Shown here in pieces: positions 5,001 through 33,468 of a stretch of DNA of 41,543 bases. The notes beneath the pieces are model-generated. The model was not told the origin of the DNA. It saw only the letters and a list, made by a program, of their open reading frames with translations, and searched no databases. The position numbers and the translations under genes were made by a program. How positions within the stretch are numbered: the first letter of the stretch is position 1; each line of letters opens with the position of its first letter. The stretch spans positions 1 to 41,543 of the forward strand of contig CAKZHE010000140.1 in assembly GCA_936920195.1 (NCBI GenBank), read 5' to 3'. This stretch comes from an uncultured cyanobacterium. GTDB taxonomy: Bacteria; Cyanobacteriota; Cyanobacteriia; Cyanobacteriales; FACHB-T130.

Positions 5001-7491
5001 AAACTAAGTCTGATAATTGGTTAGCGCGTTCTAGGTTAGTATTAAGATATTCCGCCGCGATCGCTTCTATATAAACATCCAAAGTTAATTGGTATTGATT
5101 TTGCCAGCTATGCCCATCAAGGAGTTCTAAACTAATATTTAGACATTCTCTGGCAACGTTATAGGCATTAGAAGCTATGGCTTTTTTACCAGCCTTCAAA
5201 TTCAGTTTTACTAGCTGTTCTTTTTCGGCTAGGGATTGAATCAATTCTCGACCAATATTTAATTGGTTCACTATATCAAAAATGTTTTCTTCAATTTCAG
5301 GCTCTGGATTATTTTGGAGTAGCAGTTGCCCAATCTTTAAATGGGTGGCTTTTTTCTCCAATTCTGGAATTAACGAGTAAGCGGCTTGCTGAACTCGGTC
5401 ATGCAAAAACCTGTAAAATACTGATGAGGAATAATTATTCTGTTCCCAATCTCCAGCCCCAAGCAACGGAATTTTATAAGCTTCTGATAATGGTAAGATC
5501 AATCCTGCTTGCAGTGCTGACCAGAGAATTGTAGCAGTTTCAGAAGCCGATTTTTCGCAGGCGATCGCCAACACAAATAAATTAAAGCGATTGCCAATAC
5601 AAGCGGCGATTTTCAAAAGTTGCTGCGTTTCCTCTGGCAATTTCTGAATATTCCTTGCCAGCAATTCTACAATGCTGTAATCAACGATTTCCTTTGCCAA
5701 AATCTTTTGGATATCCCACTGCCAGCCTCTCGCCTGAAAATCAAAAGTTAATAGTTCTTCGCTATGGAGACTTTGCAGTAACTGGGTTAAGAAAAATGGA
5801 TTTCCTTGGGTTTTATTGTAAATCAACTCTGCCAGAGGCTGAGTCACAGTTTTTTCTTTGCTGTTGCTTGCGCCTGTCCCCAGAGCATCAGCAATTAAGT
5901 CCCAAACACTAGAAAAACTCAGTTGATGCAAAACGATTTGATTTATTTTGCCCTGAGCTTGTTGAATCTTGTCGATGGTACTGGTTAAAGGATGGACTGC
6001 ATCCACTTCATTGTCTCGATATGCACCAATGAGTAAGAAATATTTACTGTCTGCATCAGTAATAAGAAGTTCAATTAAATTTAATGAAGTCAGATCTGCC
6101 CATTGCAAATCATCTAAAAATAAAACTAAGGGATGTTCTTTTTGGGCAAACACCTGAATCAACTGTTGAAATAGTTGATTAAAGCGATTTTGGGCTTCTG
6201 CTGCTCCTAGTTCTGGGGCTGGGGGATGACTGCCAATAATTTTTTCTAAATCAGGAATTACATCAATGATGACGGCAGCATTTTCGCCTAACACAGCCAG
6301 GATATTTTCTTGCCAATAGGTGATTTTTTCTTGACTTTCGGAAAGGAGTTGCTGAATTAAATCTTCACAAGCTTCAATTAAGGCTGCATAGGGAATGTTG
6401 CGCTTAAATTGATCGAACTTGCCATCAATGAAATAACCTCGTTGCTGCACAATGGGTTTGTGAATCTCGTTAATTAGGGAAGATTTACCGATACCAGAAT
6501 ATCCAGAAACTAAAACAATTTCACTTTGTCCATGACTAACTCTTTGAAAGGCGGTTAGTAGCTGATTAACTTCGGTATCTCTCCCATAGAGTTTTTGGGC
6601 AATAACTAATTGAGCGGATCTGTCCAATTGTCCAGGAAAAAAATAGGCGATCGCGCCCTTTTCTTCTAATTGATTTAGGCAAGTTTCTAGATCTGCTTTT
6701 AGCCCGCTAGCACTCTGATAGCGGTCTTCGGCATTCTTCTCCAACAACTTCATCACTACTTCTGAAATAGTCGCTGGAATTTGGGGATTAAGTAGCTGGG
6801 GAGGTAGGGGTTGTTTAGCAATATGGCTGTGAACTATTTCCATAGGATCGTTACCTTTAAAGGGAATGTCTCCCGTCAACATTTCATAAAAAGTTACCCC
6901 CAAGGAATAAAAATCTGTATGATAATCAATCGACCGATTCATTCTGCCAGTTTGCTCTGGAGACATATAGGCTAGCGTCCCTTCAAAATTAGCAGGATTG
7001 GTAATTTGAGCATCTTCCTTGCTTAACCGAGACGCAATGCTAAAATCAGTAATCTTGATTTTCTCGGCATAGGGATTGATAATGATATTTCCGGGTTTAA
7101 TATCTTTATGGATAATTTGATTCTGATGTAAAAAACTCAACGCCTCAGCTAATTTAATCGCGATTTTTAAAAAGCTTTTTAATTCCAGCGGCGATGCTGA
7201 AGAATTAAGGATTTCTCTGAGGGATTTACCCCCGAAGTCTTCCAAGATCAGGGCTAATCGATTTTGATAGCTTTCCAGGCTGTAAACCTTCACAATTCCT
7301 TCGGCATCTAAATTTGCCGCAATCTGATATTCGTGCTTCAGCCGTGCCAGTTGCTCAATGGTGGGAGATTCAGCTTTCAGAGTTTTAATAATCGTCGGCT
7401 GTCGATCTCGTTCTCTAATTCCTCGATATATCAGGGTGTTAATTCCGGAATTGATTGCCTTGCCGAGTTGATAGCCAGGAATACTTAGCAT
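2068..7491 (-). CDS. hybrid Ser/Thr protein kinase - AAA ATPase - GAF - sensor histidine kinase
   Basis: A single 1807-aa protein combines eukaryote-type and two-component signalling. Domains in order: a Ser/Thr kinase (about 1-270; candidate VAIK lysine K36, catalytic loop HKDIKPGN at 128-135); an AAA ATPase (about 300-560; Walker A GYSGIGKSS at 330-338); a long helical TPR-like region (about 700-1280) resembling the MalT/STAND class; a GAF domain (about 1320-1490); a short coiled coil; and a histidine kinase with phosphoacceptor H1553 (GIAHEINNP), N box NILLNAIDAL, DNGSG at 1738-1742 and GTGLGL at 1764-1769. The kinase DFG motif reads DFS (149-151). The architecture matches the cyanobacterial HstK-like family. 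No response regulator is adjacent, so the partner and stimulus are unknown. Confidence 0.92.
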   Translation of the reverse strand: MLSIPGYQLGKAINSGINTLIYRGIRERDRQPTIIKTLKAESPTIEQLARLKHEYQIAANLDAEGIVKVYSLESYQNRLALILEDFGGKSLREILNSSASPLELKSFLKIAIKLAEALSFLHQNQIIHKDIKPGNIIINPYAEKIKITDFSIASRLSKEDAQITNPANFEGTLAYMSPEQTGRMNRSIDYHTDFYSLGVTFYEMLTGDIPFKGNDPMEIVHSHIAKQPLPPQLLNPQIPATISEVVMKLLEKNAEDRYQSASGLKADLETCLNQLEEKGAIAYFFPGQLDRSAQLVIAQKLYGRDTEVNQLLTAFQRVSHGQSEIVLVSGYSGIGKSSLINEIHKPIVQQRGYFIDGKFDQFKRNIPYAALIEACEDLIQQLLSESQEKITYWQENILAVLGENAAVIIDVIPDLEKIIGSHPPAPELGAAEAQNRFNQLFQQLIQVFAQKEHPLVLFLDDLQWADLTSLNLIELLITDADSKYFLLIGAYRDNEVDAVHPLTSTIDKIQQAQGKINQIVLHQLSFSSVWDLIADALGTGASNSKEKTVTQPLAELIYNKTQGNPFFLTQLLQSLHSEELLTFDFQARGWQWDIQKILAKEIVDYSIVELLARNIQKLPEETQQLLKIAACIGNRFNLFVLAIACEKSASETATILWSALQAGLILPLSEAYKIPLLGAGDWEQNNYSSSVFYRFLHDRVQQAAYSLIPELEKKATHLKIGQLLLQNNPEPEIEENIFDIVNQLNIGRELIQSLAEKEQLVKLNLKAGKKAIASNAYNVARECLNISLELLDGHSWQNQYQLTLDVYIEAIAAEYLNTNLERANQLSDLVLQRTKTLIEKIPVYEKKIQFYTAQNQMTAVIDTAIPLLAELGFPLPKKVNKLGFLIELLQTKLNLGNKQVAELVALPIMTDPYKLATMRLLNSVFIAAGITNPEILPIVAMKMINLSIKHGNCPQTAIGYSLYGLILCAGMGDINGGYKFGQLAVKLIDNFSFKKLKPSVYMLSIITIRHWKEPLKNLINPCLEIMKISLEISDLEYSSYAVIGYVINGFLSGMNLRTLAGNNGHNIQKLTKLKQKFSLELNYLWMQLYLKLIGQNSIKDSEQKLASSIENNNRTMAFQINLTQSIFAYFMRNYGEAFEQSKLADKYSDSAFGVITFAANNFYYSLSLLAVYPQASAKEQKEFLKKVAANQKIRKNWAIHCPMNFQHGYDLVEAEKARVLGQEYQAIAYYESAIAVAKKEGFIHEEALACELTAEFHFSRHQEIIAQAYLHQAYNAYQAWGAGTKVKDLEQRYSEIFSARSKGSESEVASLDLMPANQTHITRSTTSSNHSAILDILTVTKAAQAISGELILENLLSKLTQIIMESAGAQKVLLFLLEDNKMVLAAEGTVESERGVNLPFIPVNQDLDVPLSIINYVHRTQETLVLNNATKEGKFTNDSYIQKYQPKSVLSLPILYQGKFIGILYLGNRIAQGVFTQERLEIIKVLVSQMSISIENARVYATLEERVAARTEELQRKNHELSTTLDNLQRSQTQLIQTEKMTSLGQLVAGIAHEINNPVSFIHGNIEHTEKYTRQVLNLVKKYQQYYPQPAEEIQKELEDMELEYIVEDFERMVSSMKMGTKRIRSIVESLRIFSRLDEAEYKYVDLDECIDSTLLILQYYLNPKADKSEIMVVKEGDRLSSIQCYPGVLNQALLNILLNAIDALDVLRSDVDSIRKPTIKITTKLLNNGWAVIQIGDNGSGMSPEVQQHIFEPFFTTKPVGKGTGLGLATSYQIIADRHKGTLKCISTAGEGTEFIIEIPVKQSKL

Positions 7492-30912: not shown

Positions 30913-31248
30913 ATGGACAGAATAGAAGAATACCGCGACCTAATCAATAAAGTTTTGTCGGCGCACGCCAATATTCCCTACAGTCATGGTGAGATCAAAA
31001 GCATTGTAATTGTCAGCCAAGACCGCAATCATTTTTTAATTATGAATGAAGGATGGGACGGTAAAAAACGCATTCATGGTTGTCTAGTTCATGTCGAAAT
31101 TATTGATGGAAAAATTTGGATACATTACGATGGCATCGAAGACGGTATCACCGATGAATTAGTCGCGGGGGGTATTTCCAAAGACCAAATAGTTTTAGCT
31201 TTTCATCCCCCCTACGTGAGACAGCATACTGGATATGCAGTGGCGTAG
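30913..31248 (+). CDS. xisI: XisI family protein (fdxN element excision controlling factor), without xisH
   Basis: The 111-aa protein matches XisI: MDRIEEYRDLINKVLSAHA, then VSQDRNHFLIMNEGWDGKKR, GCLVHVEIIDGKIWIHYDGI, ending GISKDQIVLAFHPPYVRQHT. In Anabaena, XisI and XisH are controlling factors for excision of the fdxN element. XisH normally sits immediately upstream; here that space holds only a repeat, and the ATG directly follows GTAGGGTGCGTT, itself half of a dispersed palindrome. No Shine-Dalgarno is visible. The frame is intact and of family length, so it may be an expressed orphan or a stranded remnant. Confidence 0.88.
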   Translation: MDRIEEYRDLINKVLSAHANIPYSHGEIKSIVIVSQDRNHFLIMNEGWDGKKRIHGCLVHVEIIDGKIWIHYDGIEDGITDELVAGGISKDQIVLAFHPPYVRQHTGYAVA

Positions 31249-31571
31249 CTCTAGAGTGCGTTAGGTTGAATGCAAGGTTGAAGCCTGTTCAGCTAAAGGT
31301 CTTGGTCAATCTAGTCTCTCCAAAATAAAAATCCTATTTTTAGAGTCATATCATATCCGGGCGATTGCCCACTATAAAACAATACGGTTCAGTTACAACG
31401 TATCCCACTGTTGTGAGGTAAAGCAATCAATGTTATGGTTAGGGGCGAAGCATTCGGACGACAATTGATTGCTAAAACCATAGATATTCTGTCCGTTCGC
31501 GCAGCGTAGCGTTAGCCATATGCTTCGCCCAGATACCCCAAAATATCCCTAAATGAACCGTAAAGACTTGG
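31249..31571. repeat. intergenic region with GGGGCGAAGCATTCGG inverted repeat
   Basis: The 320-base gap holds GGGGCGAAGCATTCGGAC at about 31442 and the opposing GTCCGTTCGCGCAGCGTAGC with ATGCTTCGCCC near 31530. ACGGTTCA upstream pairs with TGAACCGT near 31553, so the whole block from 31384 to 31561 is bounded by inverted ends. No coding frame is convincing. Confidence 0.6.
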
Positions 31572-32264
31572 CTAAACTTGAGATGGTAAAGAAGGTACAG
31601 AAGGTGTGGTTTTTAGAATTTTAGGCAATACATCAACAAATGGTATTAAACTAGCGTTTGGCTTTGCATTACTATAAAGTCCATTAGTGAAAATAATATT
31701 CCCAATTCCAAGAACCATAATAAACAACATCGCCAGAGAAAAATATCTTAGTGCTGCCCTATATAAATCAATCATAAAGTTTGTTGCACGATGATTGTAG
31801 TCTTGTGCCTCAAGTAAATCATTGCACAACATCTTTTTGGTTGAGTCAGATTTTGAGTCTAAAAAAATATAGCTATAGTCAGTAGTCTGGGTGTTATCAA
31901 TCCCAAAATATATTGTTAATAGAAAAATAGTGAGAAATAGCAGAGTGAGCGGGAAGATAGAACAAAAACCTATAGATTTTATAGATACAATACTAGTGGT
32001 ACTAGAAATCAAGCCTAGCAATAGAGAAGTCAAAGTTAATAAAGTACGTGCCTTTGTGTCAACTTTATCTCGACGATCTTTTACTTCTTTGTTTTTTTCC
32101 TTAAGAAAGTCAATCTTTTGATCGCAAATATTAGTTTCATCAAAAAGACAAATTAATTTCAGTTTTCTTTCTGATTTATACGCTCTTTGTTGAACCTCAG
32201 AAAGAGTACATTCAATTAGGGATATTCGCATTAGTATCCATGTGAAAAAAACTGATAAACTCAT
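31572..32264 (-). CDS. membrane protein of a putative graspetide operon
   Basis: The 230-aa product has a possible hydrophobic start, a basic coiled segment (KNKEVKDRRDKVDTKARTLL), two close transmembrane helices at about residues 73-95 and 98-120, a soluble stretch, and a third helix at about 173-195. The block DKVDTKARTLLTLTSLLLGL resembles the start of PycTM-type membrane domains, but this is a weak visual match. It starts three bases after the ATP-grasp gene, so it belongs to the same transcript. Export, processing or self-protection for the peptide are the natural guesses. Base composition is clearly more A/T-rich than in housekeeping genes nearby. Confidence 0.6.
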   Translation of the reverse strand: MSLSVFFTWILMRISLIECTLSEVQQRAYKSERKLKLICLFDETNICDQKIDFLKEKNKEVKDRRDKVDTKARTLLTLTSLLLGLISSTTSIVSIKSIGFCSIFPLTLLFLTIFLLTIYFGIDNTQTTDYSYIFLDSKSDSTKKMLCNDLLEAQDYNHRATNFMIDLYRAALRYFSLAMLFIMVLGIGNIIFTNGLYSNAKPNASLIPFVDVLPKILKTTPSVPSLPSQV

Positions 32265-32267
32265 ATT

Positions 32268-33239
32268 TTATGAACGCATAAGTTGCATAGATTTTAATAA
32301 TGAACTTGCTATATCTGTTACTCCTTCTAAGTCTAACCAAGCCCATTGACCATTTGGATTAATTTCAAAAAACACCCAATTGTAATCTTTTGTAAACGCC
32401 ATATCAACAGTAGCAAATCTCAATTTATAAGACTGGCATAACTCTAAAACTTTATTTTCTATATAGGATGGCAGTACAATCAGTTGATATCGAACATTTT
32501 CCATATTGTTCCTTCGTATATCTATAGCTTGCAACTTGTCTTGTTCAGAAGCATAAAGCGCGACAGCAATAACTTTCTCATCTATGATATTGATCCTGAC
32601 ATCATAAATTTTCTTTACTTTCTCCTGGAATAAAGTTGGGCATAAAGACAATAAATCTTGATTTTCACTAAGTTGTGCCAGAGTAACTTCATTAGTAAAG
32701 ATCAAAGTGTCTTCATTAGAATTATCTCTTTCTATGTATCCATGAGAAATTGGTTTCACAACTAAGCTACCTTTACACTCTTTCCAAAACTCCATAGTTT
32801 CTTCAAAAGACTGGGTAACTAGAGTTTTAGGAATTGTAAGTCCCAGTCTGTTCGCACGACTTAACTGTTCTAGTTTAGACATAGCTAAGGCGTTATTGCT
32901 TGGATGATTAATCCATAACTTGATAGGAATATGAGCTAGAAATCCTTCAATTGCTGCACTCCATTCACTGATACTATGTGTTTTATCACCTTTTTCAAAA
33001 GTTGTGTTTTCTTTAAAACCTAAAGATTGTGGTCTTCTACACCACATAGAACGAATGTCATCTAGTCTTAATATTCGATTATTGATAACAAGTGAAAAAC
33101 TGTTTAGCTTGTAAAGTAATTGCGTATTCTTAACTAGTTGATCGGTATTCAGTCTGATATAATCAAGTTGGTTTTGCTCCAATCGAGAGCAAACATAATC
33201 TGCTGTTACATCAAATGAATTTGATAAGATTCCTATCAT
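32268..33239 (-). CDS. ATP-grasp peptide ligase (graspetide / MvdC-MvdD-like macrocyclase)
   Basis: The 323-aa enzyme belongs to the ATP-grasp ligases that form ester or amide cross-links between Thr/Ser/Lys and Asp/Glu side chains of a precursor peptide. Family marks seen are: N-terminal MWCRRPQ (65-71, variant of the usual WYRRP), INHPSNNALAMSKLEQL (110-126), a phosphate-binding Lys in SLVVKPIS (158-165), YDVRINI (212-218), and the metal-binding end FFEINPNGQW (290-299). Only one such ligase is present, unlike the MvdC+MvdD pair of microviridin clusters. The precursor stop lies 10 bases upstream. A general ATP-grasp role such as tripeptide synthesis is less likely, given the WCRRP and NPNGQW motifs. 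Confidence 0.85.
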   Translation of the reverse strand: MIGILSNSFDVTADYVCSRLEQNQLDYIRLNTDQLVKNTQLLYKLNSFSLVINNRILRLDDIRSMWCRRPQSLGFKENTTFEKGDKTHSISEWSAAIEGFLAHIPIKLWINHPSNNALAMSKLEQLSRANRLGLTIPKTLVTQSFEETMEFWKECKGSLVVKPISHGYIERDNSNEDTLIFTNEVTLAQLSENQDLLSLCPTLFQEKVKKIYDVRINIIDEKVIAVALYASEQDKLQAIDIRRNNMENVRYQLIVLPSYIENKVLELCQSYKLRFATVDMAFTKDYNWVFFEINPNGQWAWLDLEGVTDIASSLLKSMQLMRS

Positions 33240-33249
33240 ACATAAAATG

Positions 33250-33468
33250 TCACGGGATTATAGCAAACTGGTTGTAGCAAGAGGTATCAGAGTCAAAATT
33301 CTCTCGTGTATCAGTTCTTGTTTGTGTACCAAGACTTCGAGGATCTTGATCTGTCTCCTCTTTTGAATCAGTTCTTGTTTGTGTACCAAGCAATACGTTG
33401 GCTACGTTAATGTTTTTTGGCTGGCGTACTGGTTCTTGATATAAAGAAATAAAACTGCATTTCATCAT
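33250..33468 (-). CDS. putative graspetide precursor peptide with two core repeats
   Basis: The 72-aa product has a leader of about 27 residues (MMKCSFISLYQEPVRQPKNI, then NVANVL) and two tandem cores. The first is LGTQTRTDSKEETDQDPRS and the second LGTQTRTDTRENFDSDTS. Each places three Thr hydroxyls before a run of Asp/Glu, the arrangement needed for side-chain ester rings. The shared LGTQTRT is identical over 23 bases (33311-33333 and 33368-33390), a sign of recent duplication or homogenisation. A short tail CYNQFAIIP follows. It lies immediately before the ATP-grasp gene. The core differs from microviridin (TxKYPSD), plesiocin (TTxxEE) and marinostatin types. Two consecutive ATGs can start it. 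Confidence 0.75.
   Translation of the reverse strand: MMKCSFISLYQEPVRQPKNINVANVLLGTQTRTDSKEETDQDPRSLGTQTRTDTRENFDSDTSCYNQFAIIP

Follow-up and report, generated by a model that had tools for sequence, protein, structure and literature searches.

A probable horizontally acquired graspetide operon with a membrane partner remotely related to PycTM in an uncultured cyanobacterium

What does a compact three-gene operon in an uncultured cyanobacterium of the FACHB-T130 lineage make, and how did it get there? The question is raised by a contig of 41,543 nt (CAKZHE010000140.1; hereafter the window, meaning this whole stretch), for which an earlier note, made from the sequence alone, had proposed a graspetide operon of a new type, acquired by transfer. 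The three genes run leftward on the reverse strand and encode a putative 72-aa graspetide precursor (33250..33468, from the ORF list), a 323-aa ATP-grasp enzyme assigned to the graspetide synthetases of the MvdC/MvdD superfamily (32268..33239; ORF list and profile matches) and a 230-aa membrane protein with three predicted transmembrane (TM) helices, a candidate remote PycTM homologue (31572..32264; ORF list and profiles). Their coordinates leave intergenic gaps of 10 and 3 bases, exactly as the note had described, and the A/T-richness that it reported is also seen: the GC content is 33.1% in the operon vs 43.0% in the window, where only 4 of 793 stretches of operon length have a GC as low, and the AT-rich region also spans the flank of the operon, up to about 37 kb. 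Within the three-gene operon there is neither a protease gene nor a transporter gene, and a scan for terminators found none. Directly downstream, positions 31493-31516 read GCTAACGCTACGCTGCGCGAACGG, an apparent interspersed repeat of cyanobacteria that is present in a single copy in the window. Just past the 3' end of the operon, the opposite strand carries a gene for a XisI family protein (30913-31248, forward strand).

The 72-aa peptide (MMKCSFISLYQEPVRQPKNINVANVLLGTQTRTDSKEETDQDPRSLGTQTRTDTRENFDSDTSCYNQFAIIP) is composed of the leader SFISLYQEPV, the cores GTQTRTDSKEETDQD and GTQTRTDTRENFDSD, and the C-terminal QFAIIP. The note had described Thr-rich followed by Asp/Glu-rich repeats; two GTQTRTD repeats are found, at residues 28 and 47, in which TxTxT precedes E(E)xDxD, the second core having one Glu fewer. 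At the DNA level, the start of both core repeats is encoded by a 33-nt direct repeat (33301..33390, reverse strand, from the repeat search), the two copies of which are 91% identical at a spacing of 57 nt. The leader segment FISLYQE, as well as FLLRFQE and FWRHFEE in relatives, resembles Phhx(1,2)h / PFFARFL, with the Pro being absent in the window and in most relatives; this leader motif is present in only about half of precursors (Makarova, PMC8939145).

The adjoining ligase contains both WCRRP and EINPNGQW, the marks by which the note had recognized it. Its best profile matches are to ATP-grasp ribosomal peptide maturase models, i.e., TIGR04187 (216 bits, 6e-64, under the cutoff of 350), MvdD and MvdC, all of which remain below their own cutoffs; TIGR04184 matches at 8e-49, and the cutoff of PF21068 (the Pfam MvdD pre-ATP-grasp family) is passed. 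The solved relatives of the enzyme include the graspetide synthetases 5ig9, 5ig8, CdnC (7mgv) and AMdnB (7m4s), and the residues that are invariant among the ligases are intact in the alignment. The ligase is also distantly similar to RimK, so that it could act on another substrate by RimK-like amino acid addition, with the small ORF being incidental; yet the MvdC/MvdD models score far better and the precursor recurs beside the ligase across phyla, and this reading is very improbable. The note had considered it unusual that there is one ligase instead of two, a trait that we reject as distinctive because a single ligase suffices for plesiocin and for thuringinin (PMC8939145).

Whether the three genes belong together can be judged from their relatives. 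A single-protein ligase scan of genome contigs and viral contigs found nothing, and an alignment-based profile scan of public genomes retrieved 439 ligase relatives, the best 80 of which were studied as loci along with 16 viral contigs. A precursor with TxT...E..D adjoins the ligase in 75 of 94 related loci and has two or more repeats in 66 of the 94, as opposed to a background of 7 and 1, respectively, among the 5,933 remaining ORFs of these loci; ligase homologues do not, therefore, consistently lack such a peptide, a possibility that the earlier note had raised against its own proposal. Likewise, 73 of 96 loci have a homologous TM protein after the ligase, a count in which one locus (L105) was scored as having no TM protein, yet carries one; the loci without it belong mainly to the actinobacterial ligase branch, to related viral contigs and to truncated contigs. 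Three-gene units are also found on plasmids and phages. A complete one occurs in Leptospira phage LE1 and in several viral contigs (L078, L162, L163, L160 and L161), the TM protein of L162 being an existing PHROG of unknown function (phrog_21292).

Within the window's own clade, the precursor is present in 18 of 19 loci and the downstream TM protein in all 19. The clade precursors have in common a leader F..xFQE, a core TxTxTxx(R/K)ExxDxD and a trailing (A/S)IP: their leaders include FLLRFQE, FILQFQE and FWRHFEE, their cores include GTKTITKTREETDQH, GTQTHTLIRAEQPDGD and TQTMTRTREEPDQD, and their spacers end in AIPR or similar. SFISLYQE, GTQTRTDSKEETDQD and FAIIP in the window constitute the same three elements of leader, core and spacer, and an Ignavibacteriae precursor (QEPVRG...LGTQTITETRESLDTDKSLSSYSLIPRQ) aligns with the window precursor along most of its length. 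These loci (L080-L098) are thus like the window in leader, core, spacer and three-gene order, with ligases that are 39-47% identical; unlike the window, they usually have more repeats, often two precursors and mostly a collagen-like tail on the membrane protein. The operon joins the two parts of a graspetide cluster, namely a ligase of the MvdC/MvdD superfamily and an adjacent precursor with Thr/Ser donors and Glu/Asp acceptors that is conserved among relatives. As the co-occurrence of the three genes is conserved, the biosynthetic reading of the operon, judged from sequence, is a strong one in which we place high confidence; the graspetide operon proposed in the note is supported by the ligase family, by the adjacent repeat precursor and by the same gene order in dozens of genomes.

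How new such an operon is depends on what it is compared with. Thuringinin loci have a single ligase, multi-repeat precursors (cluster 13; Lee groups 3, 5 and 6) and an uncharacterised membrane protein (cluster 18), for which Makarova et al. guessed a role in transport (PMC8939145). Likened by published description, the window has all of these traits: one ligase, several Thr-then-Glu/Asp cores, an uncharacterised membrane protein in the locus and no known transporter. It differs in its leader and in its core spacing, TxTxTxxxEExDxD, from what we take to be the thuringinin motif. Microviridin identity was also considered and rejected: the window shares the ligase superfamily of MvdC/MvdD, and its leader F-x-x-x-F/Y-x-E resembles PFFARFLE, but it has one ligase, tandem cores, no TxKYPSD-like core and another position in the tree. 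Calling the operon a new type was thus too strong, because thuringinin loci (PMC8939145) already combine one ligase, a multi-repeat precursor and a membrane protein that is yet to be characterised. The part of the claim that stands is narrower: the operon is a new graspetide member, possibly of an uncatalogued group, although its clade may be one of the groups catalogued by 2026 (24 earlier and 19 new; PMC13097080).

The ligase tree bears on how the operon arrived. In the maximum-likelihood tree, the window ligase falls within a 21-member clade (support 100/100) that spans Planctomycetota, Verrucomicrobiota, Myxococcota, Acidobacteriota, Bacteroidota, Elusimicrobiota, Ignavibacteriota and Krumholzibacteriota, and it is sister to the Acaryochloris plasmid ligase (100/99). 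Cyanobacterial microviridin ligases lie far from this clade, and ligases from the same order, whether microviridin-type or other, are only about 23-34% identical to that of the window. A precursor homologue was found in only 1 of 391 genomes of the order besides its own (55% identical), and the search of the precursor against plasmids gave no match. In five family relatives, the upstream flank gene stands without a neighbouring operon; the flanks are rearranged and show no clean empty site. Horizontal acquisition of the operon is supported by how rarely relatives carry it, by its unusual base composition and by the placement of its ligase among those of other phyla, and the transfer that the note had suggested from base composition gains the support of the ligase phylogeny.

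Two related copies elsewhere show signs of decay. The nearest plasmid copy, on Acaryochloris pMB09, is about 50% identical and split into five frameshifted pieces, with IS1 upstream, a membrane-protein homologue downstream and no detectable precursor; coding for GPPGPPGPP is seen just after this broken copy (L027, about 6690-6745). The one other genome of the order with a precursor homologue (G488) has it as an orphan downstream of an RND-type efflux gene (L054:1297-1518; G488:C4), and the second core of this precursor has lost acidic residues, with no match to the ligase or the membrane protein beside it or elsewhere in that genome. Such decay, together with the single ligase copy in the window's own genome, would also fit a loss of activity in this strain, with the operon persisting as a remnant. 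This is improbable, given that the three ORFs are full length, that the invariant ligase residues are intact and that the 10- and 3-base spacings are compatible with a working operon.

The membrane protein is the least familiar component. Its AlphaFold model is confidently helical (pLDDT 86, pTM 0.80) and contains the three helices that the note had counted, i.e., TM1, into which a long helix runs (46-90), TM2 (95-120) and TM3, which is also part of a long helix (140-199). The protein matched no Pfam family; Foldseek against PDB and viral models, along with VIA-align, gave helical-bundle noise and no convincing or solved relative; and, taken alone against 386 genomes of the phylum, it gave weak, unconvincing matches only. 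It scores 6e-17 against a family profile built without the window and its clade. PycTM models are the commonest match of this family in the PADLOC defence library (10 of 36 members for the best model, lowest E-value 1.8e-7), the window protein alone matching PycTM at an E-value of 1.5e-4. With a PycTM profile made from proteins of the same order that strongly match the PycTM model, HHalign gave a probability of 96% for the broad TM family profile over the full PycTM length and 62% for the profile of the window's own clade, vs 0.1% for a reversed-sequence control. A random TM control was small because several of its proteins were family members (L105) or PycTM (L186-L191), and the reversed-sequence control is the cleaner of the two. 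On account of the PADLOC matches and of the HHalign contrast between 96% and 0.1%, the membrane protein is read as a remote PycTM homologue. The likeness to PycTM, the anti-phage effector of Pycsar systems, is a remote homology that covers the membrane domain in full; unlike in Pycsar, the N- and C-terminal parts differ, a graspetide ligase and a precursor stand alongside, and neither the operon nor the nearest neighbours that were examined include a pyrimidine cyclase. A second PycTM-like ORF is found elsewhere in the same genome (G000:C56:6473-6715, L178; E-value 8e-4).

The N-terminal part of the membrane protein is rich in Lys/Arg and the TM1-TM2 loop has few of these residues, a distribution that suggests an N-in, C-out topology and would hence place collagen-like tails outside the cytoplasm. 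Gly-X-Y repeats occur at the C-terminus of the TM proteins of 14 clade loci, usually after a conserved D..L..LLRGP, and Pfam Collagen matches 9 of the 36 TM proteins scanned; the window protein reads ...DVLPKILKTTPSVPS at the LLRGP point and has no collagen-like tail. Tailed proteins are found within L080-L095 (e.g., L086:4963-5817, L087:4960-5892 and L093:4876-5904). The membrane proteins of sphingomonads and of a Chlamydiae bin (L121:4768-6105, L129:4873-6153 and L106:4952-6637) carry C-terminal extras of 150-300 residues that are unlike the collagen-tailed form. Among the papers available, none was found to describe a link to PycTM or collagen-like tails in the membrane proteins of graspetide loci, and a search on the LGTQT core and on graspetides with a collagen-like membrane tail or PycTM found nothing relevant beyond corallotide, which was dismissed as a precedent since there the collagen likeness concerns the peptide itself.

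Remote homology to a Pycsar effector opens another reading, in which the operon is a conflict or defence module whose cross-linked peptide controls, by blocking or opening it, an adjoining PycTM-like, membrane-disrupting effector. The operon lacks an exporter or protease, related systems are found on plasmids and phages, an AbiEii gene lies beside the L080 unit and the BREX genes BrxA/BrxB lie about 0.5 to 0.9 kb from the L081 unit of Candidatus Laterigemmans (L081:1996-3158), all of which would suit such a module. We nevertheless consider it unlikely, if worth keeping in view: a common family shows no function, the operon has no cyclase or other sensor gene, defence neighbours occur in only a few loci and are counted without a baseline, and an effector that acts inside the cell would not be expected to have collagen-like tails. 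More speculative, and slightly less likely still, is its extension to a graspetide super-group of many phyla, built of peptide, ligase and PycTM-like protein, in which the cross-linked peptide, rather than a nucleotide, would gate or restrain a membrane-disrupting effector that sometimes bears an extracytoplasmic collagen-like stalk; this would be a peptide-controlled conflict system and not a secreted protease inhibitor, protease inhibition being the usual activity of the graspetides characterised so far.

The explanation that we favor as a whole, and consider likely, is a graspetide operon that came in by horizontal transfer and is probably functional, with the membrane protein as a dedicated partner. 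By inference from the family, the ligase would bind the N-terminal helix of the precursor (SFISLYQE) and, by analogy with known graspetides, would use ATP to join the Thr side chains of each TxTxT to the Glu/Asp of E(E)xDxD by ester rings, so that one peptide would bear two ester-ringed units in tandem. The membrane protein would then serve as a dedicated N-in, C-out three-TM partner of the PycTM superfamily that may hold the peptide, export it or give immunity to it, which is the least certain step; as for its role, we place a dedicated partner in export, anchoring or immunity ahead of a membrane effector under the control of the peptide.

With this operon, a broad and mostly untested graspetide family has a compact representative from a cyanobacterium, and the core motif TxTxTxx(R/K)ExxDxD provides a clear handle on ring topology. 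Additionally, the relation to PycTM supplies a definite hypothesis to test about a type of protein that has so far only been guessed to be a transporter, and it could join RiPP chemistry and bacterial immunity.
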